64,000 nt of DNA, taken from contig NZ_FOUG01000004.1 in the NCBI RefSeq assembly GCF_900114785.1, forward strand, positions 1 to 64,000. Direction: 5' to 3'. Source of the stretch: Variovorax sp. OV329. Its GTDB lineage: Bacteria; Pseudomonadota; Gammaproteobacteria; Burkholderiales; Burkholderiaceae_C. Position 1 is the first letter of the stretch, and every line of letters starts with the position of its first letter. The notes below the pieces were generated by a model. It saw only the letters and a list, made by a program, of their open reading frames with translations. It made no database searches and was not told where the DNA came from. Of the stretch, positions 10,427 through 27,492 are shown piece by piece. The position numbers and the translations under genes were made by a program.

Positions 10427-13400
10427 TCAGCGCGCCGCGTTCGCCGAATGCGAGCGCGCCTCGCGCACCTTCTGCGGCAGGTCCGTCCATGCCGGCTCCT
10501 GCGGCGCGAAGCGTGCGCGCATGTACTGCGCCAGCTCGGCGATCTGCCGGTCGTCCAGTGCATCGGCGAAAGACGGCATGAAGCCGATGTCCTTCGATGC
10601 CGGTTCGCGCACGCCTTCGAGGATGGTGCGCAGCAGGTTGTCGGGCCGGGCGCTCGTCAACTGGCTGTTGAGGGCCAGCGGCGTGTTCACGCCCAGCAGC
10701 GTGGGTCCGTTGCCGTCGTGGTGGCAGGCGGCGCAGGCGCCGTCGAAAAGGCGCTGCGCCATGCCGGGCTGCGGCTGCTTGAGTTGGGCGTGCGCGACGA
10801 CGCGGCGCGCCTGCTCGTCGGCCTGCGCCTCGCTGGTCTCGCCCTGGAAGGACGAGAGATAGCGGGCCATGGCGCGGATGTCCGCGTCCGGCACCTGCCC
10901 CAGTTCGCGCACCACCTCCGCCATGGGTCCGCCGGCGATGCCGTGGCGCGGGCTGTGGCCGTTGCGCAGGTATTGGTAGAGCGACTCGGCGGTCCACGGC
11001 ACGGCTGACTTGGCTGCTAGACCCGTGAGCGCCGGCGCTTCCCAGCCTTCGACCATCGCGCCCGACAGGTAGGCCGGCCCGCCCTGCTCCGCGCCCAGCG
11101 CATTGCGCGGCGTGTGGCAGGCGCCGCAATGACCCAGGCCATTGACCAGGTAGGCGCCGCGGTTCCATTCGGCGCTGCGCGCGGCGTCAGGCTGGTAGGG
11201 CACGGGATCGTGGAAGAGCGCGTTCCAGCCGGCCATGAGAGGACGCAGGCCGAAGGGGAACTTCATCTGCGGCTCTGGTGTGGCCGCATGCACCGCGGGC
11301 TGCGACATCAGGTAGGCGTAGAGCGCGTTCAGGTCGTCGTCGCTCACCTTGGCGAAGGCGGTGTACGGAAAGGCCGGGTACAGCCGATGCCCGTCGCGCG
11401 AGATGCCCTCGCGCATGGCGCGCTGGAAGGCGCTGAATGACCAGCGGCCCAGGCCAGTTTCCGCATCAGGGGTGAGATTGGTCGTGTAGACCGTGCCGAA
11501 GGGCGTCTCCATGGCCAGGCCGCCGGCATTGCGCGCGCCGCCCGGCGCGGTGTGGCACACGGCGCAGTCGCCCAGCGCAGCCAGTTGCCGGCCGCGCTCG
11601 ATGGTGGCTTCGCTGTAGACCGGCGCGCTGCTGAGGTTCACCGGCGCGATGGCGGACCTCGCACCCATCAGCCCCGCGACGGCGCCGAGGCCACCGACCA
11701 GCAGCGCCGCGCCGGTCGCCCACAGCCCGCGGCGCCGCCGGGGCCACGGTGCGTCGGGCGGCGGGCGGCGCATGGCCAGGTCGCCGGCTCCCGCAGCGCC
11801 ACCGGCATCGGCATCGGCAACGCCAGCCAACCCGCTAGGCGGCGGCAGCGGATTCAGCGCCGCCCGCACCACCTCCGGCGTGAAGGGCGGCGCGCGAAAG
11901 CGCACGCCCGTCGCATCGAAGATCGCGTTGGCGATGGCCGCGGTGCCGGGCACCGAGGCCGACTCGCCCGCGCCCATCGGCGCCTCGCCGGGGCGCGGCA
12001 TCTGCAGCACCTCGATCACCGGCACTTCGCGGAAGTTGAGGATGGGGTAGCTGCCCCATTCGCGGCTGGCCACCACGCCGGCCGGACGCACGCCGGGCAG
12101 GTTCTGCGCCTGTTCCGCCTGCATCTGCGGCTGCGGCGCGAACTGCACCTTCTCCTTCAACGCCCGGCTGGTGGCCTGCAGAACGTTGCCGTGCACCTGG
12201 TGCGCCACGCCCGCCGGGTTGATGACCAGGCCGGCGTCATGCCCCACCACCACGCGGCGCACATGCACCTCGCCGGTCTTCGTGTTGACCTCTACGTCGG
12301 CCACCCACGCGGCCCAGGCGGCCCCGAAGCCCGGCCACTTGCTGTGCACGTAGCGGGCGTAGGCGAAGCCCTGGCCGAAGAGGATGTCGCCGCCCGGTCC
12401 CAGGCCGCCGTCCGCGTTCTCCTGCGGACCGCTGCGCATGCGCCAGCCGGCCTTCTGCGCGGTGGCCTGCACCAGTTCGACGGCACGCGGGTCGTGCAGG
12501 TGGCGCAGGCGGAAGGCGACCGGGTCTTCGCCGGCAGCGGTGGCCAGTTCGTCGATGTAGGACTCGTGCGCGAAGGCGTTGGGCAGCGCCGACACGCCGC
12601 GCAGCCACGAGGCGCGCACGATGGGCGCCATGTCGTTGACCTTGACCCGCAGGTTGTCGAAGTCGTAGGGCGGTCGCGCGGTGCGGTCGCCCATCTCGTA
12701 GGCCTGGGCGGAAGGCTCCACCGTTCGCGTCAGCAGCAGCGCCAGCGTGGGCGCGCCGTTGGACGGATAGGAGGTCTCGAAGTCGTAGGCGGCGACACTC
12801 CCGTCGGCCTGCAGCCCGCCCTGCACCTGCATCAGCTGCGCGGCGCCCTTGGGCTCCCAGGCGTGTTCCTGCTCGCGCGTGAGCTGCACCCGCACAGGCG
12901 CGCCGACGGCGCGCGAGAGCAGTGCGGCATCTGCCGCCACGTCGTCCGCGCCGTTGCGGCCGTAGCAGCCGGCGGCTTCCATGCGGACCACATCGACGGC
13001 CAGCTCGTCCAGCTCGGTCAGTTGCGCCAGGTCGCGGCGCAGGACGTGCGGGTTCTGCGTGCCGGCCCAGACGCGTAGTCGTGTGCCCCCACGCTCCCCC
13101 ACTTCGTGTGGGTCGCTGCCCCCCGAGGGGGCGCTCGCCCTGGACCCCGGCGAAGCCGGGGCGGCCGGCCCCTCGGGCCGGGGGCTCGGAGCGGGGCTTT
13201 CATCCGGCGCCCAATGCGCCACCGCGCACGATGGCCCGATGGACGCATGCATCTGGTAGGGCCACACATAGGTGCGCGGCATGGGCTGGGCCATGGCCTG
13301 CAGCGCGCCGTCGACATCGCCCTCGTCCACCAGCAGGCGCTGCGTGGCGGGGTTGTCGCGCAGCGCGCCTTCCAGGTCCTCGACCGAGGGCATGCCGGGC

Positions 13401-14278
13401 CAGGGCTTCCAGCGCACGCGCAGTGCGCGCATGGCCTGCTCTGCCTCTTCCTCGCGCTCGGCCACCACGCCGACGAAGTCGCGCAGCACCACCACTGCGC
13501 GCACGCCGGGGATGTGGGCGATGGAGCTTTCATCCACCGATTCCAGCGTGTTGCCGATGAACTCGCCATGGTCCGCGCCCGCATAGGGCGGGCGCACCAC
13601 TCGGCCATGCAGCATGCCGGGCAGGCGCATGTCGTGCACGAAGACCAGCTCGCCCGAGAGCTTGGCCGGAATGTCCACCCGCGGCACCGACTGGCCGACG
13701 ATGCGGTAGTCCTGCGATGCCTTCAGAGGCGCATCGTGCGCCAGCTGCAGCACGGTGCGCGCACCGGCCACCAGGCGACCGAACTCGATCGAATGGCCCT
13801 CCCCCGCATGGATGCGCCCGTCGCGCACCTCCAGTAGCGAAGGCACCACGCCGAAGTGTTCCGCCGCCTGCGCCACCAGCCAGGCGCGCGCCTGCGCCGC
13901 CGCCCGGCGCAGCGGCGCCGAATGGATCTGGATGGAAGCGCTGGCGATGGTCGCGCCCTGGTTGGGCACGCGTGCGGTGTCGCCCAGCACCATGCGCACC
14001 TGCGACAGCGGCGCGTCCAGTTCCTCGGCCACGATCTGCGAGAGCGCGGTCGCCAGGCCGGTGCCCAGGTCCACGTGGCCGTTGAGGCCGGTGACGCCGC
14101 CGTCGTCCCACACCGCCAGCAGGATTTCCGAGCCTTCCGCAGGATTGCCCGGGACGGCCGCCGGCTGGCCCGGCACCGGGGGCGCCGCGGGCGGCGTTTC
14201 GCGCACCACCAGCAGCACGCCGTCGGCCGCGAGGAAGTCGGCGCGGGTCAGGGTCGCGTGGTCGCGGCGCGTGCTCAC
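10427..14278 (-). CDS. nicB: Nicotinate dehydrogenase large subunit: molybdopterin domain fused to a triheme cytochrome c
   Basis: GTG 14278 overlaps the stop of the small-subunit gene (GTGA). About residues 1-800 form the xanthine dehydrogenase-type molybdenum domain (GLNGHVDLGTG; RNGADDVAADAALLSRAVGAPVRVQLTREQEHAWEPKG; PMGAGESASVPG with the catalytic Glu). A basic patch and one membrane segment follow at about 845-870, then three heme c sites: CAVCH near 905, CGACH near 1050, CAACH near 1180. This is the architecture of Pseudomonas NicB, which hydroxylates nicotinate at C6 and passes electrons to the respiratory chain. Nicotinamidase and 6-hydroxynicotinate reductase in the same array support the substrate. 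A proline-rich insert (residues about 359-400) is encoded by a repeat element. Other N-heterocycle hydroxylases share the fold. Confidence 0.85.
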   Translation of the reverse strand: MSTRRDHATLTRADFLAADGVLLVVRETPPAAPPVPGQPAAVPGNPAEGSEILLAVWDDGGVTGLNGHVDLGTGLATALSQIVAEELDAPLSQVRMVLGDTARVPNQGATIASASIQIHSAPLRRAAAQARAWLVAQAAEHFGVVPSLLEVRDGRIHAGEGHSIEFGRLVAGARTVLQLAHDAPLKASQDYRIVGQSVPRVDIPAKLSGELVFVHDMRLPGMLHGRVVRPPYAGADHGEFIGNTLESVDESSIAHIPGVRAVVVLRDFVGVVAEREEEAEQAMRALRVRWKPWPGMPSVEDLEGALRDNPATQRLLVDEGDVDGALQAMAQPMPRTYVWPYQMHASIGPSCAVAHWAPDESPAPSPRPEGPAAPASPGSRASAPSGGSDPHEVGERGGTRLRVWAGTQNPHVLRRDLAQLTELDELAVDVVRMEAAGCYGRNGADDVAADAALLSRAVGAPVRVQLTREQEHAWEPKGAAQLMQVQGGLQADGSVAAYDFETSYPSNGAPTLALLLTRTVEPSAQAYEMGDRTARPPYDFDNLRVKVNDMAPIVRASWLRGVSALPNAFAHESYIDELATAAGEDPVAFRLRHLHDPRAVELVQATAQKAGWRMRSGPQENADGGLGPGGDILFGQGFAYARYVHSKWPGFGAAWAAWVADVEVNTKTGEVHVRRVVVGHDAGLVINPAGVAHQVHGNVLQATSRALKEKVQFAPQPQMQAEQAQNLPGVRPAGVVASREWGSYPILNFREVPVIEVLQMPRPGEAPMGAGESASVPGTAAIANAIFDATGVRFRAPPFTPEVVRAALNPLPPPSGLAGVADADAGGAAGAGDLAMRRPPPDAPWPRRRRGLWATGAALLVGGLGAVAGLMGARSAIAPVNLSSAPVYSEATIERGRQLAALGDCAVCHTAPGGARNAGGLAMETPFGTVYTTNLTPDAETGLGRWSFSAFQRAMREGISRDGHRLYPAFPYTAFAKVSDDDLNALYAYLMSQPAVHAATPEPQMKFPFGLRPLMAGWNALFHDPVPYQPDAARSAEWNRGAYLVNGLGHCGACHTPRNALGAEQGGPAYLSGAMVEGWEAPALTGLAAKSAVPWTAESLYQYLRNGHSPRHGIAGGPMAEVVRELGQVPDADIRAMARYLSSFQGETSEAQADEQARRVVAHAQLKQPQPGMAQRLFDGACAACHHDGNGPTLLGVNTPLALNSQLTSARPDNLLRTILEGVREPASKDIGFMPSFADALDDRQIAELAQYMRARFAPQEPAWTDLPQKVREARSHSANAAR
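13081..13205 (-). repeat. GC-rich palindromic repeat inserted in frame in the molybdenum subunit gene
   Basis: Contains several nested hairpins: GCCCCCCGAGGGGGC (13118-13132), CCCCGGC-GAA-GCCGGGG (13145-13161) and CCAC-TTCG-TGTGG. It encodes a Pro/Ala/Gly/Ser-rich stretch including RPEGPAAP, absent from the conserved core. The same peptide is made by the second copy in the next gene upstream. Confidence 0.65.
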
Positions 14279-14838
14279 GCCGCCTCGTCCTTCCCGGTCG
14301 CCTGCGATGCGGCCAGCCGCACGGCTTCCAGGATCTCCACGTGCGTGCCGCAACGGCAGAGGTTGCCCGAGAGCTCGTCGCGGATGCGTTCTTCCGATGG
14401 ATGCGGCTCGCGCGCCAGCAGCGCCGCGGCCTGCATCACCATGCCATTGAGGCAATAGCCGCACTGCGCCGCCTGCGCCTGCGCGAAGGCCTTCTGAACC
14501 GGATGCCAGCGCTCTCGCGGCGGCGCTGGGCCGCCCCGAGGCGCAGCAGGGCCCTCGGGGCGAAGCGAGGACACGAACGTGCCGAGCGCGGGGGCCACGT
14601 CCGCCAGCCCTTCGAGCGTGGTGATGCTGCGGCCGGCCACGCCATGCGCGGGAATCACGCAGGCCCGTGCCGCCATGCCATCCACCCACACGGTGCAGGC
14701 ACCGCACTGGCCCAGGCCGCAGCCGTACTTGGGGCCGTTGAGCTGCAGGTCGTTGCGCAGCAGGTGCAGCAGGCTCGCCTCGCGCGGAATGTCGAGCTGG
14801 ACTTCTCGCGCGTTGACGGTGAGCGCCAGTGCCGGCAT
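14275..14838 (-). CDS. nicA: Nicotinate dehydrogenase [2Fe-2S] small subunit
   Basis: 187 residues with a plant-type ferredoxin cluster (C40, C45, C48 in GCGLGQCGAC, and C60) and an all-helical second cluster domain (AQCGYCLNGM ... CRCGTH). This is the small subunit of two-component molybdenum hydroxylases, passing electrons from the Mo site. ATG 14838 is the start; longer frames run into the preceding gene. A 20-residue insert at about 89-108 (RPEGPAAPRGG) separates the domains and comes from a repeat element. The stop overlaps the start of the large subunit, so the two are translationally coupled. Confidence 0.9.
   Translation of the reverse strand: MPALALTVNAREVQLDIPREASLLHLLRNDLQLNGPKYGCGLGQCGACTVWVDGMAARACVIPAHGVAGRSITTLEGLADVAPALGTFVSSLRPEGPAAPRGGPAPPRERWHPVQKAFAQAQAAQCGYCLNGMVMQAAALLAREPHPSEERIRDELSGNLCRCGTHVEILEAVRLAASQATGKDEAA
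14515..14575 (-). repeat. Second copy of the GC-rich repeat, in the small subunit gene
   Basis: On the minus strand it carries CGCCCCGAGGGCCCTGCTGC and codes RPEGPAAPRGG, matching the motif in the copy at 13081-13205. CCCCGAGG and CCTCGGGG arms form an inverted repeat. It is in frame and does not interrupt the gene. Confidence 0.6.
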
Positions 14839-14858
14839 CTGTGCGGTCGTGTGCCAGC

Positions 14859-15584
14859 TCAGGCGATGTCGGAGGACTGGATGCGCTTGACGCCCTTGGC
14901 GCTCATCTGCTTCCAGGCGGCGGCCAGCGAGCCGTTGAGGTCGATGGCGCGGGTGGCGTCCTCGATCACGTAGACCTGGAAGCCCAGCTTGCGCGCGTCC
15001 ATTGCGGTCCAGGCCACGCAGAAGTCGGTGGCCAGGCCAGTGACATACACGGTGTTGATGCCGCGCTGCTTGAGGTAGCCCGCCAGGCCCGTGGGCGTCT
15101 TGCGGTCGGCTTCCTCGAAGGCCGAGTAGCTGTCGACGTCCTTGTGGAAGCCCTTGCGGATGATGACCTGCGCGGTGGGCAGCTTCAGGTCCTTGTGCAG
15201 GGCCGCGTCGTCCGAGCCCTGCACGCAGTGGTCGGGCCACAGCACCTGGTTGCCGTACTTCAGCTTGGTGGTCTCGAAGGGCTTCTTGCCGGCGTAGGTG
15301 CTGGCGAAGGAAGCATGGCCGGCCGTGTGCCAGTCCTGCGTGACCACGATGTTCTCGAAGGCGCCGGCCAGCTTGTTGATGACCGGCACCACGTCGGCGC
15401 CGCCCTTCACCGGCAGCGTGCCGCCGTCGATGAAGCAGTTCTGCACGTCCACCACGATGAGCGCCGACTTGGCGCCCGGCTTGACCTTGGCCTGCGCGAA
15501 GGCGCTGGGCGTGAGGCCCAGGCCGCCCATCATTCCCAGGGCGGCGCTGGCTTGGAGGAGGGAACGGCGTTGCAGTTGGCGCAT
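14859..15584 (-). CDS. pncA: Exported nicotinamidase (isochorismatase fold)
   Basis: A twin-arginine-like leader (QRRSLLQASAALG, then cleavage near AFA-QA at residue 30) suggests Tat export. The catalytic triad is D46 (VVDVQNCF), K144 (IRKGFH) and C189 (TGLATDFCV), with metal ligands D84, H86 and H90 in DWHTAGH. These match PncA nicotinamidases, which hydrolyse nicotinamide to nicotinate and ammonia. It lies between the ABC importer and the nicotinate dehydrogenase genes, 20 bases from the latter, so it probably makes the pathway's nicotinate outside the cytoplasm. Cytosolic PncA lacks such a leader. Confidence 0.88.
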   Translation of the reverse strand: MRQLQRRSLLQASAALGMMGGLGLTPSAFAQAKVKPGAKSALIVVDVQNCFIDGGTLPVKGGADVVPVINKLAGAFENIVVTQDWHTAGHASFASTYAGKKPFETTKLKYGNQVLWPDHCVQGSDDAALHKDLKLPTAQVIIRKGFHKDVDSYSAFEEADRKTPTGLAGYLKQRGINTVYVTGLATDFCVAWTAMDARKLGFQVYVIEDATRAIDLNGSLAAAWKQMSAKGVKRIQSSDIA

Positions 15585-15621: not shown

Positions 15622-16365
15622 TCAGACGCTCAGGTAGTTGCGGCGAACTTCGTCGTTGGCGGCCAGTTCGGCCATCGAGGCCTGGTAGCGGATCTGGCCT
15701 TTTTCCAGCACATAGGCGCGGTCCGACACCAGCTCGGCGAAGTGCATGTTCTGCTCCGACAGCAGGATGCTCACGCCCTGCGCCTTGAGCTCGATGATCA
15801 TGTTGGCCATCTGCTCGACGATGACCGGCGCCACGCCCTCGGAGGGCTCGTCCAGCAGCACCAGGTAGGGGTTGCCCATCAGCGTGCGGGCCACCGTCAG
15901 CATCTGCTGCTCGCCGCCGCTCATGCGGCCGCCCGTCCGGTTGGGCATCTCGCCCAGGTTGGGAAAGAGCTTGTAGAGGCGCTCGGCCGTCCACAGCGGC
16001 GCGTCGCTGCCGTCGCTCCACTTGCGCGCGGCCTGGCGGCCCACTTCCAGGTTCTCGGTGACGGTCAGGTCGGTGAACACGCGCCGGTCCTCGGGCACGA
16101 AGCCCAGGCCCAGGCGCGCGGCCACGTGCGGCTCGCTTTTGCTGATGTCGTGGCCCAGGAAGCGCACCGCGCCGCGGCGCTTGGTGAGCATGCCGATGAT
16201 GGCCTTGAGCGTGGTGGACTTGCCCGCGCCGTTGCGGCCCATCAGCGCCACCACCTCGCCGCGCCGCACCTGCAGGTCCACGTCATAGAGGATCTGCGCT
16301 GCGCCGTACCAGGCGCACAGGGCCTTGGTTTCCAGGAGGGTGTCCTGCTGCATCGTGCTGCTCAT
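15622..16365 (-). CDS. livF: Branched-chain-amino-acid-type ABC transporter ATPase
   Basis: Walker A GRNGAGKST, signature MSGGEQQML, Walker B YLVLLDEPSEG and the LivF-style ending EVRRNYLSV. 247 residues fits LivF. The start overlaps the stop of the LivG gene (ATGA). With LivG it powers the LivHM permease. The location between nicotinamidase and LivG in a nicotinate operon suggests the cargo is a pyridine carboxylate or carboxamide rather than an amino acid; this is inference. Confidence 0.93.
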   Translation of the reverse strand: MSSTMQQDTLLETKALCAWYGAAQILYDVDLQVRRGEVVALMGRNGAGKSTTLKAIIGMLTKRRGAVRFLGHDISKSEPHVAARLGLGFVPEDRRVFTDLTVTENLEVGRQAARKWSDGSDAPLWTAERLYKLFPNLGEMPNRTGGRMSGGEQQMLTVARTLMGNPYLVLLDEPSEGVAPVIVEQMANMIIELKAQGVSILLSEQNMHFAELVSDRAYVLEKGQIRYQASMAELAANDEVRRNYLSV

Positions 16366-17156
16366 GCGGCGGCTCCTGCCTTTTCCTTGTCTTTCTCGAA
16401 AGTCTTGCCGGTGCCGAAGTAGACCTCCTGCACCTTGGGATGGTCGCGGATCTCCAGCGGCTTGCCCTGCGCGATGAGACGGCCGCGGGCCAGCACGATC
16501 ATGCGGTCGGCATAGGCGAAGACCACGTCCATGCTGTGCTCGGTGAAGAGCACCGCCATGCCGCGGTCGATGACCAGCTGCTTGGTCAGCGCCATCAGCG
16601 AATTGCGCTCCTTGGGCGCCATGCCGGCGGTGGGCTCGTCCATGAGCAGCAGCTTGGGGCTGTTGGCCATGGCGATGGCCAGTTCCACCCGCTTGACGTC
16701 GCCGTAGGCCAGCACGCTGCAGGGCCGGTCGGCCTGCGACTTCATGCCGACCTGGTCGAGCAGCGCCAGTGCTTCGTCGCGCTTGTGGTCGGCCGCGCGG
16801 CGCCAGGTCGAGAACAGCAGGTGATCGTGCGAGAGCAGCGCCATCTGCACGTTCTCCACCACGGTAAGCGAAGCGAAGGTCTCGGCGATCTGGAAGGTGC
16901 GGCCCACGCCCTTGCGCCAGATCTCGCGCGGCTTCCTGCCGATGAGCTCGTCGCCCGAGAGCCTGATCGATCCCTGGTCCGCCCTCAGCTGGCCGTTGAC
17001 CATGTTGAAGGTGGTGGACTTGCCCGCGCCGTTGGGCCCGATGAGGGCCAGCAGTTCGCCGGGCGCGAGGTCGAAGCTGATGCCGTCCACGGCCTTCACG
17101 CCGCCGAAGGACTTGCCCAGGTTGCTGACCTGCAAGAGAGGCGCACTAACGCTCAT
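16362..17156 (-). CDS. livG: Branched-chain-amino-acid-type ABC transporter ATPase
   Basis: 264 residues with GPNGAGKST (Walker A), LLLMDEPTAGM (Walker B) and the LivG-style ending KVQEVYFGTG. The canonical LSGGQ signature is replaced by LAYGDVKRVELA, seen in many LivG proteins. ATG 17156 overlaps the permease stop. Partner of LivF in the same inner-membrane importer. Confidence 0.93.
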   Translation of the reverse strand: MSVSAPLLQVSNLGKSFGGVKAVDGISFDLAPGELLALIGPNGAGKSTTFNMVNGQLRADQGSIRLSGDELIGRKPREIWRKGVGRTFQIAETFASLTVVENVQMALLSHDHLLFSTWRRAADHKRDEALALLDQVGMKSQADRPCSVLAYGDVKRVELAIAMANSPKLLLMDEPTAGMAPKERNSLMALTKQLVIDRGMAVLFTEHSMDVVFAYADRMIVLARGRLIAQGKPLEIRDHPKVQEVYFGTGKTFEKDKEKAGAAA

Positions 17157-19096
17157 GGCGTCACCTCCTTCTGCGCGGCAGCGACGGCAGGCACGGCCGT
17201 GGTCTCCTTCAAATCGCGCTTGTAGCGCCGGTCGAAGAGCTGCTTGACGAAGCCGGCGATGCCCTGCGGGAACAGCAGCACCAGGATCAGGATGATGGCG
17301 CCCAGCATGGCGCGCCAGTAGTCGGTGTTGCGCGCTACCGCGTCGTGCAGCCAGGTGAAGGTGACCGCACCCACCACCGGGCCGGCCAGGGTCTGGATGC
17401 CGCCCAGCAGCACCATCACCAGGCCGTCGACCGACTTGCCCACGCTCAGCGACTCGGGCGAGATGCTGCCCTTGGAGAATGCGAAGAGCGCACCCGCCAG
17501 ACCCGCCGCGATGCCGGCGATGACGAAGGCGGCCCACTGCATGCGCTTGACGTCGATGCCGATCGCGTCCGCGCGCAGGAAGGAATCGCGCCCCGCCCGC
17601 AGCGTGTAGCCGAAGGGCGAGAACAGGATGCGCCGCAGCCAAACGATGCCCACGATGACCAGCACCAGCGTCAGGTAGTAGTAGTTGGCCTTGTCCGAAA
17701 GCCACTGCGCGGGCCACACACCGGTGAGGCCGTTGCTGCCGCCGGTGAAGCTGTCCCACTGGTAGGTGACGGCCCAGGTGATCTGAGCGAAGGCCAGCGT
17801 GAGCATGGCCAGGTACACGCCCGAGAGCCGCACCGCGAACCAGCCGAAGACGATGGCGCCCACGGCCGCCACCAGCGGCGCCACGATGAGCGACAGCTCC
17901 ATCGGCACCCCGGCGGCGCGCACCAGCAGCGCCGCGCCGTAGGCCCCCAGCCCGAAGTACGCCGCGTGGCCGAAGGAATGCATGCCCGCCGGGCCCATGA
18001 TGAAGTGCAGGCTGGCGGCGAACAAGGCCGCGATCATCAGGTCGATGGCCAGCACCACGGTGTAGGGCGAATCGGCGGTGAAGGTCGGCAGCGCCACCAG
18101 CACCAGGGCCAGCACGGCGGCGGCGATGACATAGCCCCGGCTGGCCTTGCGCAACGGCTCCTCCTGCATGCCGACATACCGGCTGGGCGCCTGCGGCTTG
18201 CCGAACAGGCCCCAGGGCCGCACCACCAGCACCACCGCCATCACCAGGAATTCGACCACCAGCGTGAGCTTGGAAAAGGAGATGGCGATGCCGAAGACCT
18301 CCACCACGCCCAGCCAGATGCACAGCGCCTTGATCTCGGCGATGAGCAGCGCGGCCGCATACGCGCCGGGAATGGAGCCCATGCCGCCCACCACCACCAC
18401 CACGAAGGCGGCGCCGATGGTGTTGAGGTCCATCTCCAGCGTGGCGGGTTCCCGCGGCAGCTGCAGCGCGCCGCCCAGTCCCGCCAGCAGCGCGCCCAGC
18501 GCGAACACCGCCGTGAAGAGCCAGGCCTGGTTCACGCCCAGGGCGCTGACCATTTCGCGGTCCTGCGTGGCGGCACGCACCAGGGTGCCGAAGCGGGTGC
18601 GCGTGAGCAGCATCCACAACAGGCCCAGCACCACCGGGCCCACCACGATCAGGAACAGGTCGTAGGCCGGGAACTGCCGCCCCAGGATCAGCACCGAGCC
18701 CGACAGCCCGGGCGCGCGCGGGCCCAGCAGCTCGTCCGGGCCCCAGAAATAAAGCACCCCGTCCTTGATGACCAGGACCAGCGCGAAGGTGGCCAGCAGC
18801 TGGAACAGCTCCGGCGCCTTGTAGATGCGGCGCAGCAGCACCATCTCGATCAGCGCACCCAGCACGCCCACCGCCACCGCCGCCAGCAGCAGGGCGGGCC
18901 AGAAGCCCAGCCCCGTGCCCAGCCGCTCGACCAGCGAGTAGGCGACGTAGATGCCGACCATGAAGAAGGAGCCGTGCGCGAAGTTGACGATGCGCGTCAC
19001 GCCGAAGATCAGCGACAGCCCCGCCGCCACCAGGAACATCGACGATGCGCCGGCCAGCCCGTTGAGCAGCTGAACGATAAAGCCCGAGAAACTCAC
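17153..19096 (-). CDS. livHM: Fused ABC permease LivH-LivM
   Basis: 647 residues joining two permeases in one chain. The first 300 residues are LivH-like (GLAGASSMFLVAAGLSLIFG, RIVNFAHGSFFMVG). From about residue 325 the LivM-like part begins (IDLMIAALFAASLHFIMGPAGMHSFGHAAYFGLGAY). Both halves carry many membrane segments. GTG 19096 is selected because GAAGGA precedes it; the frame extends upstream without a ribosome site. Fused LivHM is found in some Burkholderiales. The stop overlaps livG. Confidence 0.9.
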   Translation of the reverse strand: MSFSGFIVQLLNGLAGASSMFLVAAGLSLIFGVTRIVNFAHGSFFMVGIYVAYSLVERLGTGLGFWPALLLAAVAVGVLGALIEMVLLRRIYKAPELFQLLATFALVLVIKDGVLYFWGPDELLGPRAPGLSGSVLILGRQFPAYDLFLIVVGPVVLGLLWMLLTRTRFGTLVRAATQDREMVSALGVNQAWLFTAVFALGALLAGLGGALQLPREPATLEMDLNTIGAAFVVVVVGGMGSIPGAYAAALLIAEIKALCIWLGVVEVFGIAISFSKLTLVVEFLVMAVVLVVRPWGLFGKPQAPSRYVGMQEEPLRKASRGYVIAAAVLALVLVALPTFTADSPYTVVLAIDLMIAALFAASLHFIMGPAGMHSFGHAAYFGLGAYGAALLVRAAGVPMELSLIVAPLVAAVGAIVFGWFAVRLSGVYLAMLTLAFAQITWAVTYQWDSFTGGSNGLTGVWPAQWLSDKANYYYLTLVLVIVGIVWLRRILFSPFGYTLRAGRDSFLRADAIGIDVKRMQWAAFVIAGIAAGLAGALFAFSKGSISPESLSVGKSVDGLVMVLLGGIQTLAGPVVGAVTFTWLHDAVARNTDYWRAMLGAIILILVLLFPQGIAGFVKQLFDRRYKRDLKETTAVPAVAAAQKEVTP

Positions 19097-19210
19097 TGAC
19101 GATCCTTCAAGAAAAGTGCGGCGCTGCGTTCGAAGGCGTGGCACGCGCAGCAAGCAGCGCGGCCAGATCGTGGGCACCCGCGGCACCGGCCCTGCCGGCC
19201 CGCCGGATGC

Positions 19211-19226
19211 GCCCCGGTATCGGGGC
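19211..19226 (-). terminator. Intercistronic hairpin after livK
   Basis: GCCCCG-GTAT-CGGGGC, 16 bases, in the 206-base gap between the binding-protein and permease genes. No T run follows, so it is more likely a partial terminator or a 3' stabiliser that keeps binding-protein mRNA in excess, as in many ABC operons. Confidence 0.4.
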
Positions 19227-19302
19227 CAGAGGCTGCGGTTCGAGGTCCATGCCTTTCACCGCAGCGCAGGAGCTACATGAATGAAGAGAGCAGCGGCCGG
19301 AC

Positions 19303-20586: not shown

Positions 20587-21171
20587 TCAGCGCAAGCCGT
20601 CTTCGCCCTTGATCTCGGAAACCTGCAGGCCGCCGATGCGCGGCAGCGGCCGGCCGCTGTCGGTGACGGCCACGGCCACGACGATCTCGTTGGCGCGCGG
20701 CGCGTCGGACACGCGGGCCTCGACGGCGTCGAAGTGGCTGCGCACGAAGGCGGCGTCCTTGTGGCCCAGCGGCACGTCGATGGCGGTGCCCAGCGTGCCG
20801 CGCTTCTTGGCCGAAGGCACCAGCGCGGCGCCCCTCTCCACCGCCACGCGCAGCGGCGCGCCCAGCTTGGGGTGCAGGATGGCGGCGGCATGCTCCAGCT
20901 CGCCGGCCTCGCCTACGATGGCGGCCTTGCCGTAGCTCTGTGCCTGGCCGGGCTCGATGCCGAGCGCAGCCACGCACTTCTGGCCGAGCAGGCCGCCGAG
21001 TTCCTCGCCGATGGCGATGAGATCGTCCAGCGACTCGCTGTAGCGGCCCGCGTAGGGGTTCTCGATGACCGCGATGGCCACCGCGCGGCGGGTGGGCGGA
21101 TCGATGGCCTTACCCATTTCCTTGCGGGTCTCGTCGACCTGCACGATCAGCTTGCGGATGTTGGCGCTCAT
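20587..21171 (-). CDS. DUF1185 (amino acid synthesis family) protein, copy 2
   Basis: 194 residues. Conserved stretches RAVAIAVIENPYAGRYSE, SYGKAAIVGEAGELEHAAAILHPKLGAPLR and KRGTLGTAIDVPLGHKDAAFVRSHFDA define the family. A second copy lies directly upstream. No cofactor motif is visible. No member I know of has a proven role. The consistent company of 6-hydroxynicotinate reductase suggests a step, or cofactor supply, in ring reduction or cleavage. Confidence 0.85.
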   Translation of the reverse strand: MSANIRKLIVQVDETRKEMGKAIDPPTRRAVAIAVIENPYAGRYSESLDDLIAIGEELGGLLGQKCVAALGIEPGQAQSYGKAAIVGEAGELEHAAAILHPKLGAPLRVAVERGAALVPSAKKRGTLGTAIDVPLGHKDAAFVRSHFDAVEARVSDAPRANEIVVAVAVTDSGRPLPRIGGLQVSEIKGEDGLR

Positions 21172-21215: not shown

Positions 21216-21857
21216 TCAACGCAGCCCGTCCCACTTGGAAATGTTCTCGGCGCGCAGGCCGCCCACGCGCTCGTGCACGCGGTAGCCGGTGCTCATGGCG
21301 AGGATGAACACGATCTCGTCCGCGGCCGGTGCGCCGGGCACGCGCACCTCGATGGCATCGAACTGGCCGCGCACGTAGCTGGCGTTGATGTTGGTGAGCG
21401 GCACGTCCAGCGTGCTGCCCGCCGCGCCCACCTTCTTGGTGGAGGGCACGATGGACAGCGCATTGCCGGGCTGCCCCGTCTTCTCCTCGGCCTTGCCCTG
21501 GCGGTAGGCGTTGCGGTCGCCCTTCCAGCCCAGCAGCTCGCGCATGGCGTAGCCGCCCGGCACGTGCCACAGCGCACCGTGCTCCAGCTCGCCGGCGGCG
21601 CCGACGATGGCGCCCTTGCCGTAGGTGCTGATGTCTTCCACCGGCACGTCCATGGCGGCGCGCAGGCGCTGTGCCATCTCCAGGCCCACCGGGTCGAGCA
21701 GCGACATCATCGGAAGGATGTCGGCTTCGTAGCGGCCCGCGAAGGGATTGGTGAGCACCGCGCCGATGGCGCCGCGCACCAGCGGCTTCTCCGGCCGCGG
21801 CCCGAACTCGTGAAAGATGTGTTCGACCTGGGTGAACACGCGGCGTATGTCGATCAT
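21216..21857 (-). CDS. DUF1185 (amino acid synthesis family) protein, copy 1
   Basis: 213 residues, a diverged paralogue of its neighbour. The shared frame is GAIGAVLTNPFAGRYEAD, STYGKGAIVGAAGELEHGALWHVPGGYAMRELLG and GSTLDVPLTNINASYVRGQFDAIEVRVPGAP. The two copies keep the GELEH motif and the aspartate-rich end, so they may form a hetero-oligomer. It lies 27 bases after the UPF0280 gene and 44 bases before copy 2. Function unknown; predicted cytosolic. Confidence 0.85.
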   Translation of the reverse strand: MIDIRRVFTQVEHIFHEFGPRPEKPLVRGAIGAVLTNPFAGRYEADILPMMSLLDPVGLEMAQRLRAAMDVPVEDISTYGKGAIVGAAGELEHGALWHVPGGYAMRELLGWKGDRNAYRQGKAEEKTGQPGNALSIVPSTKKVGAAGSTLDVPLTNINASYVRGQFDAIEVRVPGAPAADEIVFILAMSTGYRVHERVGGLRAENISKWDGLR

Positions 21858-21884: not shown

Positions 21885-22826
21885 TTAAGCAAATACTGAA
21901 CCAGTTGCGTGGCCCTGCATAGGCCTGGGCGGCAATGCCGCGCGATCGGCCGCAGGCAGGGAGCTTAGCGGCTGGACGATGCGCCATTGCCCCTGGCAAA
22001 CGAGGGCCACAGACCAGATGAGGCCGGCGCGCTGCAGCACGCCGGCACGCAACGCGCCCGCGGCCAGTGCGTGCTGCACCTGCGTTGGCGCGAGCACTGC
22101 GACGTCGACGGTGACGGGCAGATCGCCCAGGTCGCTGTCGTCCTTGCATTCGCTTGCCGGCCGGCGCTGGATGGCCGCGTCTTCCACGTTGACCGCGTTG
22201 GCGATCAGCGTGGCGGCAGCGTCGGCCTGCGCGGCCGTTTGCGCCAGCACGGTGACGCTGTCGGCAATGCCCAGCGAGAAGCTGCGGCCGCGCCAGCCGC
22301 TGGTGGCGATGCCGCGCACGGGCGTCGATGCATGCACATCGAACTGGCCGTCGGTTTCCAGCGGGGCCTCGTGCTGCATCGGGTCGAAGCGCGCGAGGTC
22401 GGCGAACACGCCCACGCGCGCCGAGCGGCCGGGCGCCAGGTGCAGCGCGATGTCGCCGCCGTTGTTGACCCAGGCGCGCTCGATGCCGGGGCGCCTGTAG
22501 AAAGCAATGAGTTCCTGCGCCACCGAGCCGGCCACCGCCGCCATCGGCGTGATGAAGGGCGATCCGCAGGCGAGGCTGGCCTGCTCGCAGGCATTCCGCA
22601 TGCGCTGCGCGATCTGCCCCTTCAATGTGTGCGCCGCCGAGACCGGCTGGCGCAGTCCGCGCAACTCGCCCACCAGCTCGTCGAGGATGCCGGCAAAGCG
22701 CTGCCAGGCGGCCTCGTGCGCCTGCGCGAGCACCGATGCATCGCCCTCGGCCTGCACCACGATGTCGATCGGGCCGTGCTGGAAATGCCAGCGGCCGCCG
22801 TCGAGTGGGGTGCGTTGTGCCGCCAT
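21885..22826 (-). CDS. UPF0280 family protein
   Basis: 313 residues. The central part has SPFITPMAAVAGSVAQELI, AWVNNGGDIALHLAPG and GIATSGWRGRSFSLGIADSVTVLA, typical of UPF0280, which is related to the ApbE flavin transferase fold. ATG 22826 begins eight bases after the reductase stop. If it is ApbE-like, a flavin- or substrate-transfer role next to an Fe-S reductase would make sense, but the key ApbE metal-site residues were not traced. Members commonly neighbour DUF1185 genes. Confidence 0.85.
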   Translation of the reverse strand: MAAQRTPLDGGRWHFQHGPIDIVVQAEGDASVLAQAHEAAWQRFAGILDELVGELRGLRQPVSAAHTLKGQIAQRMRNACEQASLACGSPFITPMAAVAGSVAQELIAFYRRPGIERAWVNNGGDIALHLAPGRSARVGVFADLARFDPMQHEAPLETDGQFDVHASTPVRGIATSGWRGRSFSLGIADSVTVLAQTAAQADAAATLIANAVNVEDAAIQRRPASECKDDSDLGDLPVTVDVAVLAPTQVQHALAAGALRAGVLQRAGLIWSVALVCQGQWRIVQPLSSLPAADRAALPPRPMQGHATGSVFA

Positions 22827-22834
22827 GGTGGTGC

Positions 22835-24451
22835 TCAGCCCAGCATGGGCGCGTGGCCGATGGGCCAGGGATTGGCCGGGTCCAAGGCTTCCCAGCGGCG
22901 TGCCTGAGGCGCGCCGTCGTTGTGCCACGCGCCACGCTTGAGTGCCTCTTCCAGCGAGAAGACCTGCTCCGTGTGGCCGCCCAGCGCCGCGAAGTCGCTG
23001 GCCCGCATCGTGAACTCGATGGGCGCGACGATCGCCGGCGTGGGCACGGTGCCGAAGCTCATGTCGGGCATGCGCATGACGTCGGCCATCACCGTGATGC
23101 CGCCGCCCGGCCACACGTAGGCCGGCGCACCGCCCAGCGTGACGTTGACCAGCGCATTCTTGATGGCGCGCGTGAGCAGCACCGGGTTCTCGGTGACGCC
23201 GGCGCGCAGCGAGCCGCCCGCACCACCGAGGAACAGCACCGTGCACAGCGAGGGCTCGCAGTTCTCGCCGATGCGCTCGACCACGCGGCGCACCTCGGCG
23301 GGCATGTCCTGCTCCACCGGCTGCAGCGAATCGTCGAGCACGAACCACTGCGCGTGCTCGCCGGTGGTGGAGGTCATCAGCATGCGCAGGCCGGGCCGGG
23401 CCACGCCCTCTTCCCAGCCCTCGATGATCGACAGCGGATCGGCGATGTCGGTGCCACCCCAGCCGGTACCGGGGTTGGCCACCTGGAAGTAGCGCCCCGG
23501 CGTGGACTTGCGCCCGCGCATCTGGATGCCCGAGGGGCCCATGCCCAGGCAGCGGCCAGCCTGGTGCTCGGTGAGCACGCCGGTGATGTGGTCGTCCACC
23601 ACCACCACCTCGTCGCACAGGTCGCGCAGCTGGCGCGCGAAGATGCCGATGGTCGCCGAGCCGCAGCCCACGCGCATGCGTTGCTCTTCCACGCCGCCGA
23701 CGATGGGCGCCTTGCCGGCTTGCACCACCACGGTGGAGCCGCCGTCGATGGTGCATTCGGCCGGCTTCTTGTTGCCCAGGAGCTGCATCACCTCCAGCGT
23801 CATGCGCCCTTCCTTCTTGCTGCCGCCGGTGAGGTGGTGCACGCCGCCCAGCGAGAGCATCTGCGAACCGTACTCGGCCGTGGTGACGTGGCCCACCACC
23901 TCGCCCTTGTAGCGCACGTTGGCCTGCTCGGGGCCCAGGAAGCGGTCGGTGTCGATCTTCACCTTCAGGCTGCAGTAGCTGAAGATGCCCTCGGTGACCA
24001 CGGTGACCATGTCCACGCCCTGCGCCTTGGAAGCCACGATGAAGGGCGCGGGCTTGTAGTCGGGGTAGGTGGTGGAGGCGCCCAGGCCGGTGACGAAGAC
24101 CTCGTCGGCCAGCAGCAGGTCGCCGTTCCAGTCGGGCTGGGGCTCGGCCGCCGCTTCGGCGCCCGCGTCGGCGCCCTTGTCCGCGAAGGCCACCAGCGCA
24201 GGCTGTCCACCGGCCAGCTCGCGGCGCAGCAGCACCACCGGGTCGACGCGCACCAGCGCGCCGTTGCGGTTGGCGTAGCGGTCGCACGCGCCCGTGCGGC
24301 CGTCGGAGATCTGGCACAGCACCGGGCAGGCGTTGCACTCGATCTTGGCGGTGCTCATGCGCTCGCTGCGCGGCGCGCTTCGCAATTGCGCGTCGGCCAG
24401 CACCGGCATGTCGATGCCAGGCAGGCCGTCCGTCTTGGTGTGTTCGGTCAT
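22835..24451 (-). CDS. hnr: 6-hydroxynicotinate reductase
   Basis: From ATG 24451 the chain is 538 residues. An N-terminal cluster motif CNACPVLC with a further Cys (C39, C42, C46, C56) should bind [4Fe-4S]. The rest matches the reductase known from Eubacterium barkeri (RMRVGCGSATIGIFARQL, GPSGIQMRGRKSTPGRYF). It reduces 6-hydroxynicotinate to 1,4,5,6-tetrahydro-6-oxonicotinate with reduced ferredoxin. First gene of the leftward arm; the two operators are directly upstream. Upstream in-frame ATG 24508 would overlap an operator, so it is less likely. Ferredoxin reductase and enamidase on the other arm support the assignment. Confidence 0.88.
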   Translation of the reverse strand: MTEHTKTDGLPGIDMPVLADAQLRSAPRSERMSTAKIECNACPVLCQISDGRTGACDRYANRNGALVRVDPVVLLRRELAGGQPALVAFADKGADAGAEAAAEPQPDWNGDLLLADEVFVTGLGASTTYPDYKPAPFIVASKAQGVDMVTVVTEGIFSYCSLKVKIDTDRFLGPEQANVRYKGEVVGHVTTAEYGSQMLSLGGVHHLTGGSKKEGRMTLEVMQLLGNKKPAECTIDGGSTVVVQAGKAPIVGGVEEQRMRVGCGSATIGIFARQLRDLCDEVVVVDDHITGVLTEHQAGRCLGMGPSGIQMRGRKSTPGRYFQVANPGTGWGGTDIADPLSIIEGWEEGVARPGLRMLMTSTTGEHAQWFVLDDSLQPVEQDMPAEVRRVVERIGENCEPSLCTVLFLGGAGGSLRAGVTENPVLLTRAIKNALVNVTLGGAPAYVWPGGGITVMADVMRMPDMSFGTVPTPAIVAPIEFTMRASDFAALGGHTEQVFSLEEALKRGAWHNDGAPQARRWEALDPANPWPIGHAPMLG

Positions 24452-24507
24452 CGGGGCGATCTCGAAAAGGAACTCGATCCGCAGGCTTGCAAGAAGCAGG
24501 CCTCGCA

Positions 24508-24523
24508 TGTAGCATTCGCTACA
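24508..24523. promoter_or_regulatory. Palindromic operator 1 of the nicotinate divergon
   Basis: TGTAGC-ATTC-GCTACA is a perfect inverted repeat 57 bases upstream of the hnr start. It shares the ATGTAGC half-site with operator 2. A dimer of the TetR-type product encoded at 25547 is the likely ligand. Confidence 0.65.
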
Positions 24524-24540
24524 CTTTCATGTTGCGTTCA

Positions 24541-24559
24541 CTACATGAAATCAATGTAG
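24541..24559. promoter_or_regulatory. Palindromic operator 2 of the nicotinate divergon
   Basis: CTACAT-N7-ATGTAG, a perfect 6-bp inverted repeat. An overlapping TTCATG...CATGAA pair (24526-24549) adds symmetry. The centre is about 35 bases from operator 1. The 302-base region 24452-24753 contains these operators and no gene. Confidence 0.65.
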
Positions 24560-24753
24560 CAAAGGGAGCGAGGCCTTGCAATGGTGTTTTTCCGACCTGT
24601 GGGCGAAGCGGCGACAATAGAGGGCTGGGGCCCGGTTCTCCGGGCGCCGGATGCGCTTCGCAGCCCACCGCCAGTCGAGCGCACCTTTTGCGGGCACGCA
24701 GCACGCGGCATGCGTCTTGCACCCGCCCATCCACCAACCGAATCGAGTTTCGT

Positions 24754-25527
24754 ATGAGTGCATTCAGCGAAGAGCGTGTTCTCTCCGTCCACCACTGGAC
24801 GGACCGCCTGTTCACCTTTACCACCACGCGCGACCCGGCGCTGCGTTTTTCCAACGGCCACTTCACCATGATCGGGCTGAAGGTCAACAACAAGCCATTG
24901 CTGCGCGCCTACAGCATCGTCAGCCCCAACTACGAGGAACACCTGGAATTCCTCTCGATCAAGGTGGAGGAAGGCCCCCTCACCTCGAGGCTGCAGCACA
25001 TCCAGGTGGGCGACACCATCATCGTGGGCCGCAAGCCCACCGGCACGCTGCTCATCGACTACCTGCTGCCGGCCAAGCGCCTGTACCTGTTCGGCACCGG
25101 CACCGGCATGGCGCCCTTCATGAGCATCATCCGCGACCCGGAAACGTACGAGAAGTACGAGCAGGTCATCCTCGCGCACGGCGTGCGCCAGGTGGACGAG
25201 CTGGCCTACCACGACCTGGTGGTGGACCACCTGCCCAAGCACGAGATCCTGGGCGAGATGATCGAGAAGCAGCTGCTGTACTACCCCACGGTCACGCGTG
25301 AGGAGTTCCGCAACATGGGCCGCATCACCGACCTCATCTCCACCGACAAGCTCACCAACGACCTGGGCCTGCCCCCCATCAATCCCGAGGAAGACCGCGT
25401 GATGCTGTGCGGCAGCCCGGGGCTGCTGGTGGACCTGAAGCACATCCTGGAGGCGCGCGGCTTCAAGGAAGGCAACACGAGCACGCCAGGCGAATTTGTC
25501 GTAGAGCGCGCCTTCGCCGAAAAGTAA
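24754..25527 (+). CDS. fpr: Ferredoxin-NADP reductase
   Basis: 257 residues with the FAD site RAYSIVSPNYEEHLEFLSI, the phosphate-binding GRKPTGTL, and the NADP site LFGTGTGMAPFMSI plus VMLCGSPGLL. The C-terminus VERAFAEK is that of bacterial Fpr. ATG 24754 is the start; the frame runs open further upstream through the operators. As first gene of the rightward arm beside a ferredoxin-dependent reductase, it likely draws electrons from NADPH to ferredoxin for 6-hydroxynicotinate reduction. It may also serve general redox needs, as Fpr is usually housekeeping. Confidence 0.92.
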   Translation: MSAFSEERVLSVHHWTDRLFTFTTTRDPALRFSNGHFTMIGLKVNNKPLLRAYSIVSPNYEEHLEFLSIKVEEGPLTSRLQHIQVGDTIIVGRKPTGTLLIDYLLPAKRLYLFGTGTGMAPFMSIIRDPETYEKYEQVILAHGVRQVDELAYHDLVVDHLPKHEILGEMIEKQLLYYPTVTREEFRNMGRITDLISTDKLTNDLGLPPINPEEDRVMLCGSPGLLVDLKHILEARGFKEGNTSTPGEFVVERAFAEK

Positions 25528-25546
25528 GCGGGGCATCCAGCACAAG

Positions 25547-26329
25547 ATGGCCGAGGGCAAGTCCTCACGCGGCACGACGACCAAGGCGCCCACGCGCCGC
25601 ACCGGCGTGCGCGAGGCGGCTGCCCAGGCCACCCGCGACAGCATCCTCAAGGCGGCGACCAAGGTGTTCGCCCGCTACGGCTACGACGGCGGCAGCGTCG
25701 AGAAGATCTCGAAGGCGGCCAACTCGTACGACCGGATGATCTACTACTACTTCGGCAGCAAGGAAGGCCTGTTCATCGCGGTGCTGGAAGGCATCTACCG
25801 CCGCATGGACGAGGCCGAGGCCGCCATCGAGCTGGACGAGACGCGGCCGGTGGAAGCGCTCACCGCCGTGATCCGCTTCGTGCTGGGCTACTACAGGCGC
25901 AACCCCGAGTTCGTCACGCTGCTCAACAGCGAGAACCTGCACAAGGGCAAGCACATCTCCAAGTCGCTGCGGGCGCGCGAGTATTCGTCGCATGCCATCG
26001 AGATCCTGCAGCGCATCGTCGAGGCCGGCGTCCAGCAGGGCCTGTTCCGCCCCGACGTGTCGGCGCGCGATCTCTACTTGCTGATCGCGGCCACCGGTTA
26101 CTTCTACACCTCGAACCGCTACACGCTCAGTGCATTCCTGGGCGAGCCGCTCGAGAACCAGGACGCCGTCGCGCACTGGGAAGACTTCGTGATCGAGACG
26201 GTGCTGCGCACGGTGGACGTGGCCGGCAGCGCCGCCAACGACCCGCCACACAAAGACAGCAGATCCACCCACGAGGAACAGAAGTCATGGCAGAAGCAGC
26301 AGCAGCCGGCGGCAAGTCGGGCAAGGTAG
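25547..26329 (+). CDS. TetR-family regulator of the nicotinate locus
   Basis: A TetR DNA-binding head (AAQATRDSILKAATKVFARYGYDGGSVEKISKAAN, then YYYFGSKEGLF) occupies residues about 20-75. The ligand domain follows with the NSENLHKGKHI segment. It sits between fpr and enamidase, 19 bases after fpr. Its 3' end overlaps the enamidase start by 43 bases. It is the only local regulator and probably binds the palindromes at 24508 and 24541, with a pathway intermediate as inducer. Confidence 0.9.
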   Translation: MAEGKSSRGTTTKAPTRRTGVREAAAQATRDSILKAATKVFARYGYDGGSVEKISKAANSYDRMIYYYFGSKEGLFIAVLEGIYRRMDEAEAAIELDETRPVEALTAVIRFVLGYYRRNPEFVTLLNSENLHKGKHISKSLRAREYSSHAIEILQRIVEAGVQQGLFRPDVSARDLYLLIAATGYFYTSNRYTLSAFLGEPLENQDAVAHWEDFVIETVLRTVDVAGSAANDPPHKDSRSTHEEQKSWQKQQQPAASRAR

Positions 26330-27492
26330 TCATCCGCAACATCGGTCTTCTTCTTTCGGGCGACATCGACAAGCCCATCCTGGAAGCCGACACCATCGTG
26401 GTGAACGACGGGCTGATCGTGCAGGTCGGCAAGGAGAAGGACTGCAACACCGAGGGCGCCAAGACCGTCATCGACGCGAAGAAGACCTGCGTCGCCCCCG
26501 GCCTGATCGACAGCCACGTGCACCCGGTGGCCGGCGACTGGACGCCGCGCCAGAGCCAGCTCAACTGGATCGAGTCCAGCATGAACGGCGGCGTGACCAC
26601 CATGATCTCCGCCGGCGAGGTGCACTACCCCGGCCGGCCCAAGGACATCGTGGGCCTGAAGGCGCTGGCCATCACCGCGCAGCGGGCCTTCGACGCCTTC
26701 CGTCCTGGCGGCGTGAAGGTGCTGGCAGGCGCGCCGGTGATCGAGAAGGGCATGGTCGAGAACGACTTCAAGGAGCTGGCCGAGGCCGGCGTGGGCCTGC
26801 TGGGCGAGGTGGGCCTGGGCTCGGTAAAGGCCGGCTACGAGGCCAAGGAGATGGTGGCCTGGGCACGCAAGTACGGCATCCAGAGCACCATCCACACTGG
26901 CGGCCCGTCGGTGCCGGGCTCGGGCTACATCGACAAGGACACGGTGCTGGAGGCGGACGCCGACATCATCGGCCACATCAACGGCGGCCACACCTCGCTG
27001 CCGCTCAAGCACGTGTGCGAGTTGTGCGAGCAGAGCACGCGCGGCATCGAGATCGTGCACAACGGCAACGAGAAGGTCGCGATCGGCGCGGCGCGCGCGG
27101 CGATCGAGCTCAAGTGCCCGCACCGCGTGATCCTGGGCACCGACGGGCCGGCCGGCTCGGGCGTGCAGCCGCTGGGCATCCTGCGCATGGTCTCGCTGAT
27201 CTCGGCGCTGGCGGACATCCCGGCCGAGACCGTGTTCTGCTTCGCCACCGGCAACACGGCGCGCCTGCGCAAGCTCAACTGCGGCTTGATCGAAGCGGGC
27301 CGCGACGCCGACTTCGTCTTCATGGACAAGGCGCAGCACACGGCCGGCAAGACGCTGCTGGAGAGCGTGCAGTTGGGCGACATCCCCGGCGTGGGCATGG
27401 TGATGATCGACGGCATCGTGCGCTGCGGGCGCAGCAGGAATACGCCGCCGGCGACGGAGGTGGCGGTGGTGGTTTCGGGCGCGGCGCATTGA
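26287..27492 (+). CDS. ena: Enamidase (1,4,5,6-tetrahydro-6-oxonicotinate amidohydrolase)
   Basis: 401 residues of the amidohydrolase superfamily. Metal ligands appear as HVH (H77, H79 in DSHVHP), later HTGG, HINGGHTS and GTDGP. This is the pattern of Eubacterium barkeri enamidase, which opens 1,4,5,6-tetrahydro-6-oxonicotinate to 2-formylglutarate and ammonium. The start is ATG 26287 after GAGGA, within the end of the TetR gene, so translation is coupled. Product of the neighbouring reductase is its substrate. A dihydropyrimidinase-like role is a weaker alternative. Confidence 0.87.
   Translation: MAEAAAAGGKSGKVVIRNIGLLLSGDIDKPILEADTIVVNDGLIVQVGKEKDCNTEGAKTVIDAKKTCVAPGLIDSHVHPVAGDWTPRQSQLNWIESSMNGGVTTMISAGEVHYPGRPKDIVGLKALAITAQRAFDAFRPGGVKVLAGAPVIEKGMVENDFKELAEAGVGLLGEVGLGSVKAGYEAKEMVAWARKYGIQSTIHTGGPSVPGSGYIDKDTVLEADADIIGHINGGHTSLPLKHVCELCEQSTRGIEIVHNGNEKVAIGAARAAIELKCPHRVILGTDGPAGSGVQPLGILRMVSLISALADIPAETVFCFATGNTARLRKLNCGLIEAGRDADFVFMDKAQHTAGKTLLESVQLGDIPGVGMVMIDGIVRCGRSRNTPPATEVAVVVSGAAH

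Follow-up and report, generated by a model that had tools for sequence, protein, structure and literature searches.

The 64,000-nucleotide window analysed here, from contig NZ_FOUG01000004.1 of the 6.3-Mb draft genome of Variovorax sp. OV329, carries at 10427-27492 a divergent gene locus for the predicted reductive breakdown of nicotinamide. The main interest of this locus is not the pathway but the pairing of its predicted 6-hydroxynicotinate reductase, Hnr, with a protein of the family UPF0280 (COG2122). We read the locus, with a probability of roughly 0.7, as a newly found instance of a known reductive nicotinate cluster that would convert nicotinamide to 2-formylglutarate in four predicted steps, with UPF0280 as the likely maturation factor of Hnr. 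Gene content, homology, co-occurrence and a modelled fold are the basis of this reading, and from them we infer each catalytic step, the order of the steps, their locations and the flavin step.

In the proposed scheme, an exported nicotinamidase would make nicotinate, which an ATP-binding cassette (ABC) importer would then take up. The dehydrogenase NicAB would hydroxylate C6 on the cytoplasmic face of the membrane, handing the electrons to periplasmic c hemes. Hnr would reduce 6-hydroxynicotinate to 1,4,5,6-tetrahydro-6-oxonicotinate (THON) with low-potential electrons that may run from NADPH through a ferredoxin-NADP+ reductase-like protein (Fpr) and a ferredoxin coded elsewhere, and an enamidase would open the ring to yield 2-formylglutarate and ammonia. 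For UPF0280, the mechanism that we favour is attachment of the covalent flavin of Hnr.

Pairing of UPF0280 with Hnr

The two genes are neighbours on the minus strand of the locus:

22835..24451, minus strand: hnr, predicted 6-hydroxynicotinate reductase (ATG at 24451, alternative ATG at 24508)
21885..22826, minus strand: UPF0280 / COG2122, ApbE-like fold, predicted Hnr maturation factor, possibly a flavin transferase

Hnr is predicted to be the product of the hnr gene of the reductive cluster, judging from the names of its close relatives: those called 6-hydroxynicotinate reductase by their sources are 78-85% identical to it, and the Variovorax ones among them 84-85%. It had no Pfam match at cut-off, and a search by sequence found no relative of solved structure. 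Seven cysteines are invariant in all 41 aligned sequences.

When 398 genomes were drawn evenly from the phylum to which the window belongs, Pseudomonadota, with its own genome among them, Hnr was found in 33, one of these matches (G311) being a 63-residue fragment of 19 bits. UPF0280 was detected in 32 of the 398, identical to the 32 genomes with a real Hnr, when up to six best candidates per genome were scored for UPF0280 and up to three for Hnr. Because the UPF0280 profile (A4), built from hnr-linked proteins, still detects a distant type of the family at 59-77 bits, its complete silence in the 366 hnr-less genomes is not a mere matter of low reach. Since both proteins occur in exactly the same genomes, UPF0280 likely prepares Hnr for its work. 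Of the 120 best relatives in the Hnr listing, many are Variovorax proteins; within the draw, hnr occurred in just 2 of the 11 other genomes of the window's family.

The pairing extends to gene order. UPF0280 lies on the same strand and 3' of hnr, with gaps of at most 579 bases, in 113 of 116 loci, a set that includes three duplicates and omits L128, in which hnr is in two pieces. It is 8.3 kb from hnr in L122 and missing from two loci, L054 and L115. The sequence of L054 stops within a cut UPF0280 gene; the genome of L115 (G430) has UPF0280 on another contig with no hnr beside it, and its hnr locus has a PF06684 gene of type 2 (see below). A weak Pfam ApbE match in G399, under the cut-off, proved to be one more UPF0280 adjoining hnr (L198). 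The hnr gene of L128 (genome G016) lies in two overlapping frames, which reflects a frameshift or a sequence error.

Candidate functions of UPF0280

A structure model of UPF0280 matched one UPF0280 structure and otherwise flavin transferases of the ApbE type, so that an ApbE fold is predicted. With ApbE, Ftp and FmnB the family shares, besides this modelled fold, the TSG motif (kept in 51 of 53 UPF0280 sequences) and the AD...T/S motif, presumably the Mg site (52 of 53, against 14 of 25 ApbE sequences). The H-x-x-D/N-P motif, present in 22 of the 25 ApbE sequences, has been lost from UPF0280 (1 of 53), and flavin transfer is therefore hypothetical. The available extracts of the literature yielded no flavin-transfer test of UPF0280 and, for COG2122, no link to Hnr; a literature search returned no mention of the name UPF0280, nor of ApbE together with DUF375.

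Elsewhere the family has another partner, the homocysteine-forming enzyme HcyBio (PF01837), which was found in none of the 398 genomes above. A second survey covered 169 genomes from the phylum of an Acidobacteriaceae record (L106), which we take to be Acidobacteriota. Hnr was real in one of them, the L106 genome itself (G434), two other matches being fragments of 19-20 bits. UPF0280 was found in G434, in seven more genomes as a distant type (59-77 bits), and as a candidate match of 20.8 bits in one further genome. The distant gene adjoins HcyBio in all seven cases (L245-L251), five assigned by Pfam and two by similarity to those five. The two genes face each other in L251, and HcyBio is fused to Fer4 in L245 and L250. 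An aspartate-semialdehyde dehydrogenase and an aspartokinase-like protein are also encoded near the pair in L245.

UPF0280 might mature Hnr by other means, leaving the flavin untouched and helping to assemble or sulfurate an iron-sulfur centre, a role already put forward for COG2122 in homocysteine synthesis. We think this unlikely, if well short of far-fetched. The adjacency to HcyBio in seven of seven clear Hnr-less Acidobacteriota cases speaks for it, as do the seven invariant cysteines of Hnr and the lost H-x-x-D/N-P motif. According to Price 2018 (PMC5764234), Rauch and colleagues suggested a persulfide modification for COG2122 in homocysteine synthesis, a system that resembles the present one in that its UPF0280-superfamily member neighbours an enzyme with ties to iron-sulfur proteins. 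It differs in its more distant UPF0280 type and in HcyBio, which has no detectable homology to Hnr: hhalign gave a probability of 0.2% and an E value of 0.25, next to 0.49-0.87 for three control pairs, with only five HcyBio sequences on that side. A cluster site shared by the two enzymes is thus not evident. By its modelled fold UPF0280 groups with the flavin transferases, and it retains their TSG and AD...T motifs.

The one-to-one occurrence of the two proteins in the draw and the adjacency of their genes would also suit a UPF0280 that is no maturation enzyme at all and stays bound to Hnr as a subunit or handles its substrate. This seems to us improbable, as known proteins of the ApbE fold act on other proteins, and the pairing with HcyBio would require two different complexes.

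Returning to maturation by flavin transfer, we tentatively raise, with more doubt than confidence, a broader proposal in which UPF0280/COG2122 would form another, overlooked branch of the ApbE-type flavin transferases. It would serve Hnr and HcyBio, two clients unrelated to each other, and the covalent flavin that it installs would be their shared switch between one and two electrons. Each client would reduce its substrate by two electrons, supplied one at a time by donors of the ferredoxin type. If true, this would account for the requirement for COG2122 in the homocysteine synthesis of Desulfovibrio.

Genes and predicted pathway of the locus

Two gene groups on opposite strands diverge at about 24.5 kb. 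The minus group begins with hnr and UPF0280 and continues, in reading order, with two PF06684 genes, four importer genes, the nicotinamidase gene, nicA and nicB; the plus group reads Fpr, regulator, enamidase.

21216..21857, minus strand: PF06684 (AA_synth/DUF1185) type 1, typed from a tree (Pfam 210 bits)
20587..21171, minus strand: PF06684 (AA_synth/DUF1185) type 2, typed from a tree (Pfam 240.7 bits; start ATG 21171)
19303..20511, minus strand: periplasmic substrate-binding protein of the ABC importer (PF13458, 234.6 bits; hydrophobic leader at residues 7-25)
17153..19186, minus strand: fused double permease of the ABC importer (PF02653 twice; UrtB- and UrtC-like halves, under cut-offs)
16362..17156, minus strand: ABC ATP-binding protein, LivG-like (NF008449, 212 bits, under the cut-off of 362)
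15622..16365, minus strand: ABC ATP-binding protein, LivF-like (PF00005; TIGR03410, 237 bits, under the cut-off of 285.8)
14859..15584, minus strand: nicotinamidase with twin-arginine-like leader, predicted exported (NF008623, 186.5 bits, cut-off 174; PDB 2wt9, 295.7 bits)
14275..14838, minus strand: nicA-like [2Fe-2S] subunit (PF01799, 92.9 bits; PF00111, 28.8 bits)
10427..14278, minus strand: nicB-like molybdenum subunit fused to three c-type cytochrome domains (PF20256, PF02738, PF00034)
24487..25527, plus strand: ferredoxin-NADP+ reductase-like (Fpr-like) protein of the FNR family (PF00970, PF00175; NF008178, 136 bits; family match begins near 24757)
25547..26329, plus strand: TetR regulator, RutR-like (PF00440, PF17938; TIGR03613, 68 bits, under the cut-off of 368)
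26287..27492, plus strand: enamidase, an amidohydrolase (PDB 2vun, 369 bits, E 3.2e-109, residues 12-394)

High third-position guanine-plus-cytosine (GC) content, typical of coding frames, was found in 10 open reading frames (ORFs) of the locus. The genes for UPF0280, PF06684 type 2 and the LivG-like protein lie inside longer open frames, outside this GC list, and their calls rest on family matches. The nicB gene, with a GTG start at 14278, is contained in a 1426-residue ORF (10427-14707) and overlaps nicA, in a separate frame, by four bases. The four importer genes together span 15622-20511 on the minus strand.

The sequence-only reading had placed a nicotinamidase, a nicotinate dehydrogenase, Hnr, an enamidase, a ferredoxin reductase, an importer and a regulator in this divergent locus, and these gene identities are supported; UPF0280 and both PF06684 proteins had been overlooked. 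The reductive route and the logic of its electron supply, both predictions, are likewise supported. The pathway had been called complete-looking, which holds from nicotinamide to 2-formylglutarate; later steps were not recognised in the 34 window ORFs scanned.

The leader of the nicotinamidase (MRQLQRRSLLQASAALG...) is twin-arginine-like as judged by eye, and the enzyme is probably exported by the twin-arginine translocation (Tat) path. Nicotinamidase is encoded in 16 hnr loci; a Tat-like leader was seen, again by eye, in the window, L124 and L125 and in none of the other 13. The c-type cytochromes claimed for the dehydrogenase are supported by three CxxCH motifs in NicB, all after a single hydrophobic segment (851-869), and the cytochrome part scored 337 bits against 8gy3_A. 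With RRRRG preceding that segment, the positive-inside rule would make the molybdenum part cytoplasmic and set the hemes on the outer side. The match to 2vun, the solved enamidase of Eubacterium barkeri, covers nearly the full length of the window's enamidase; this protein keeps HVH, HTGG, HINGG and the late Asp in the alignment, and the next-best PDB match reached only 27 bits.

The survey of hnr loci comprised 115: the window, five plasmid records, 80 named genome contigs, 28 phylum-draw neighbourhoods and L198. The neighbourhoods were 31 as fetched, three duplicates (L127, L150, L153) having been dropped by hand; other duplicates may remain, and the loci, many of them from Bradyrhizobium, are not independent. 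The hydroxylase, classed by tblastn bit scores, is of the NicAB cytochrome type in 45 loci and of a molybdenum/flavin adenine dinucleotide (Mo/FAD) type in 56, the 14 unclassed including L198 (Mo/FAD type on inspection) and cut-short loci. A ring opener was seen as enamidase in 51, as HyuA without enamidase in 17, and in neither form in the available sequence of 47; the 17 were scored on HyuA alone, and some have no visible HyuB in the available sequence. Loci in which a hydantoinase/oxoprolinase of the HyuA/HyuB type replaces enamidase beside hnr include L010, L011, L013, L044, L045, L079, L088 and L120.

The combination of a NicB-type heme enzyme with the reductive route, which the sequence-only reading had stressed, is common, since 45 of the 115 loci have it. 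Many surveyed Bradyrhizobium loci hold hnr, UPF0280, PF06684 type 2, an importer, a MarR regulator, NicAB, enamidase and Fpr. A like cluster was printed in 2012 for Azorhizobium, Bradyrhizobium, Rhodopseudomonas and strain SG-6C, its genes assigned by BLAST; that of Azorhizobium caulinodans and the Bradyrhizobiaceae shares with the window hnr, the first-step genes, an ABC importer and conserved proteins of unknown function (PMC3511419). Relative to it, the window adds the nicotinamidase with its Tat-like leader and both PF06684 types, and has TetR in place of MarR. The pathway itself is thus ordinary and already described; the distinctive part of this locus is the nicotinamidase. The nicotinate fermentation cluster of E. 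barkeri shares with the window the Hnr route and an enamidase close to 2vun. Its dehydrogenase, a selenium- and molybdenum-containing enzyme with FAD, is unlike the c-type cytochrome NicB, and its lower pathway is anaerobic. The nic cluster of Pseudomonas (NicAB, NicC, NicX and others) shares the NicAB-type first step; neither 6-hydroxynicotinate monooxygenase nor maleamate genes were recognised in a scan of 34 ORFs of the window, a search that did not extend to the remaining genome.

This variety of hydroxylases and ring openers suggests that substrates may vary as well, and the locus could degrade another pyridine or a lactam in place of nicotinamide and nicotinate; the printed cluster, in the extract available, was assigned by BLAST and not by mutants (PMC3511419). 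We give this little credence, given that the same gene group holds a nicotinamidase above its cut-off and a very close relative of a known enamidase.

Several points weigh against our reading of a nicotinamide pathway with a flavin-bearing Hnr. The domains of NicAB are of the expected type, but the substrate specificity is not readable from sequence. The Fpr-like protein scores well under its family cut-off (136 against 390 bits), and no ferredoxin or glutarate pathway was recognised among the 34 ORFs scanned, small ORFs lying outside the scan. The ApbE motif is lost from UPF0280, as described, and the threonine in the G-C-G-S-A-T stretch of Hnr is kept in only 33 of 41 sequences. HcyBio, the partner of the other UPF0280 type, is not known as a flavoprotein. 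Finally, the flavin step depends on Hnr carrying a covalent flavin, as reportedly described by Alhapel in 2006.

Outside the locus, the neighbours of nicB at 8637-10420 are a gene of the GFA family and one whose FAA-hydrolase match is borderline with respect to the cut-off. A methionine synthase is apparently split into a B12/pterin part and a homocysteine S-methyltransferase part (31203-33989 and 37744-38904), and histidine-utilisation-like genes (urocanase, aromatic amino acid lyase, two amidohydrolases) occupy 40702-49715.

The PF06684 pair and wider meaning

PF06684 was found in 59 of the 398 genomes of the phylum draw, among them 31 of the 32 with hnr, and both window proteins lie above the Pfam gathering cut-off of 27 bits. 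In a tree of 175 sequences, the types were defined as the largest clades around each window protein: type 1 with 69 tips (support 1.0) and type 2 with 86 (0.91). Members from hnr-less settings fall mostly outside both clades, the exceptions being L210 and L211 (both types), L199, L203 and L213 (type 1) and L214 (type 2). All 51 enamidase loci carry type 2, against 5 of the 17 HyuA-only loci (Fisher 8.5e-10, with kinship ignored and the 47 loci without visible ring opener omitted); type 1 is present in 16 of the 17 HyuA-only loci. In L107 and L122 the second copies are short matches and were assigned to type 2 manually; both loci stand outside this comparison.

As type 2 tracks enamidase over HyuA, the likely place of action of the pair is the ring-opening step or the one just behind it, where the enamine or 2-formylglutarate could be the substrate; PF06684 proteins presumably resemble enamine hydrolases of the RidA type. 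Both types also accompany enamidase, with MarR, in L210 and L211, where hnr is not beside them and lies elsewhere in both genomes; L210 has, besides, an isochorismatase-family protein and another ABC importer. Six hnr-less plasmid loci (L219-L224), in which neither hnr nor UPF0280 is annotated, hold PF06684 near an LLM monooxygenase, a flavin reductase, an aldehyde dehydrogenase and a hydrolase, a setting that we take to resemble the trigonelline (tgn) route; a seventh (L218, Rhodococcus) lacks this arrangement.

An alternative that we consider doubtful is that the two proteins are regulators or scaffolds and not ring-opening enzymes. The available extracts of the literature yielded no established activity for the family, and structures led the authors of PMC2954203 (section 3.3) to propose an assembly dependent on pH or salt. 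PMC7913881 cites the PF06684 homologue TgnF of the trigonelline route as stimulating succinate-semialdehyde oxidation, a late step, and adds that no such stimulation could be seen for HcdD. Against a regulatory or scaffolding role stand this reported effect of TgnF, the recurrence of the family in LLM-monooxygenase clusters, the tracking of the ring opener by type 2, and the company of both types with enamidase in L210 and L211.

With this locus, the reductive nicotinate route gains a further bacterium, one that probably respires. The link between type 2 and enamidase gives a concrete guess at a substrate for PF06684, whose structures have been solved and whose activity was not established in the literature extracts available. 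COG2122 is needed for homocysteine synthesis, again with no established activity in those extracts. Its partner in one phylum is Hnr and elsewhere HcyBio, so that the family gains a second, simpler client. If Hnr does bear a covalent flavin, the flavin would be visible on a gel, and the function of COG2122 would become directly testable.

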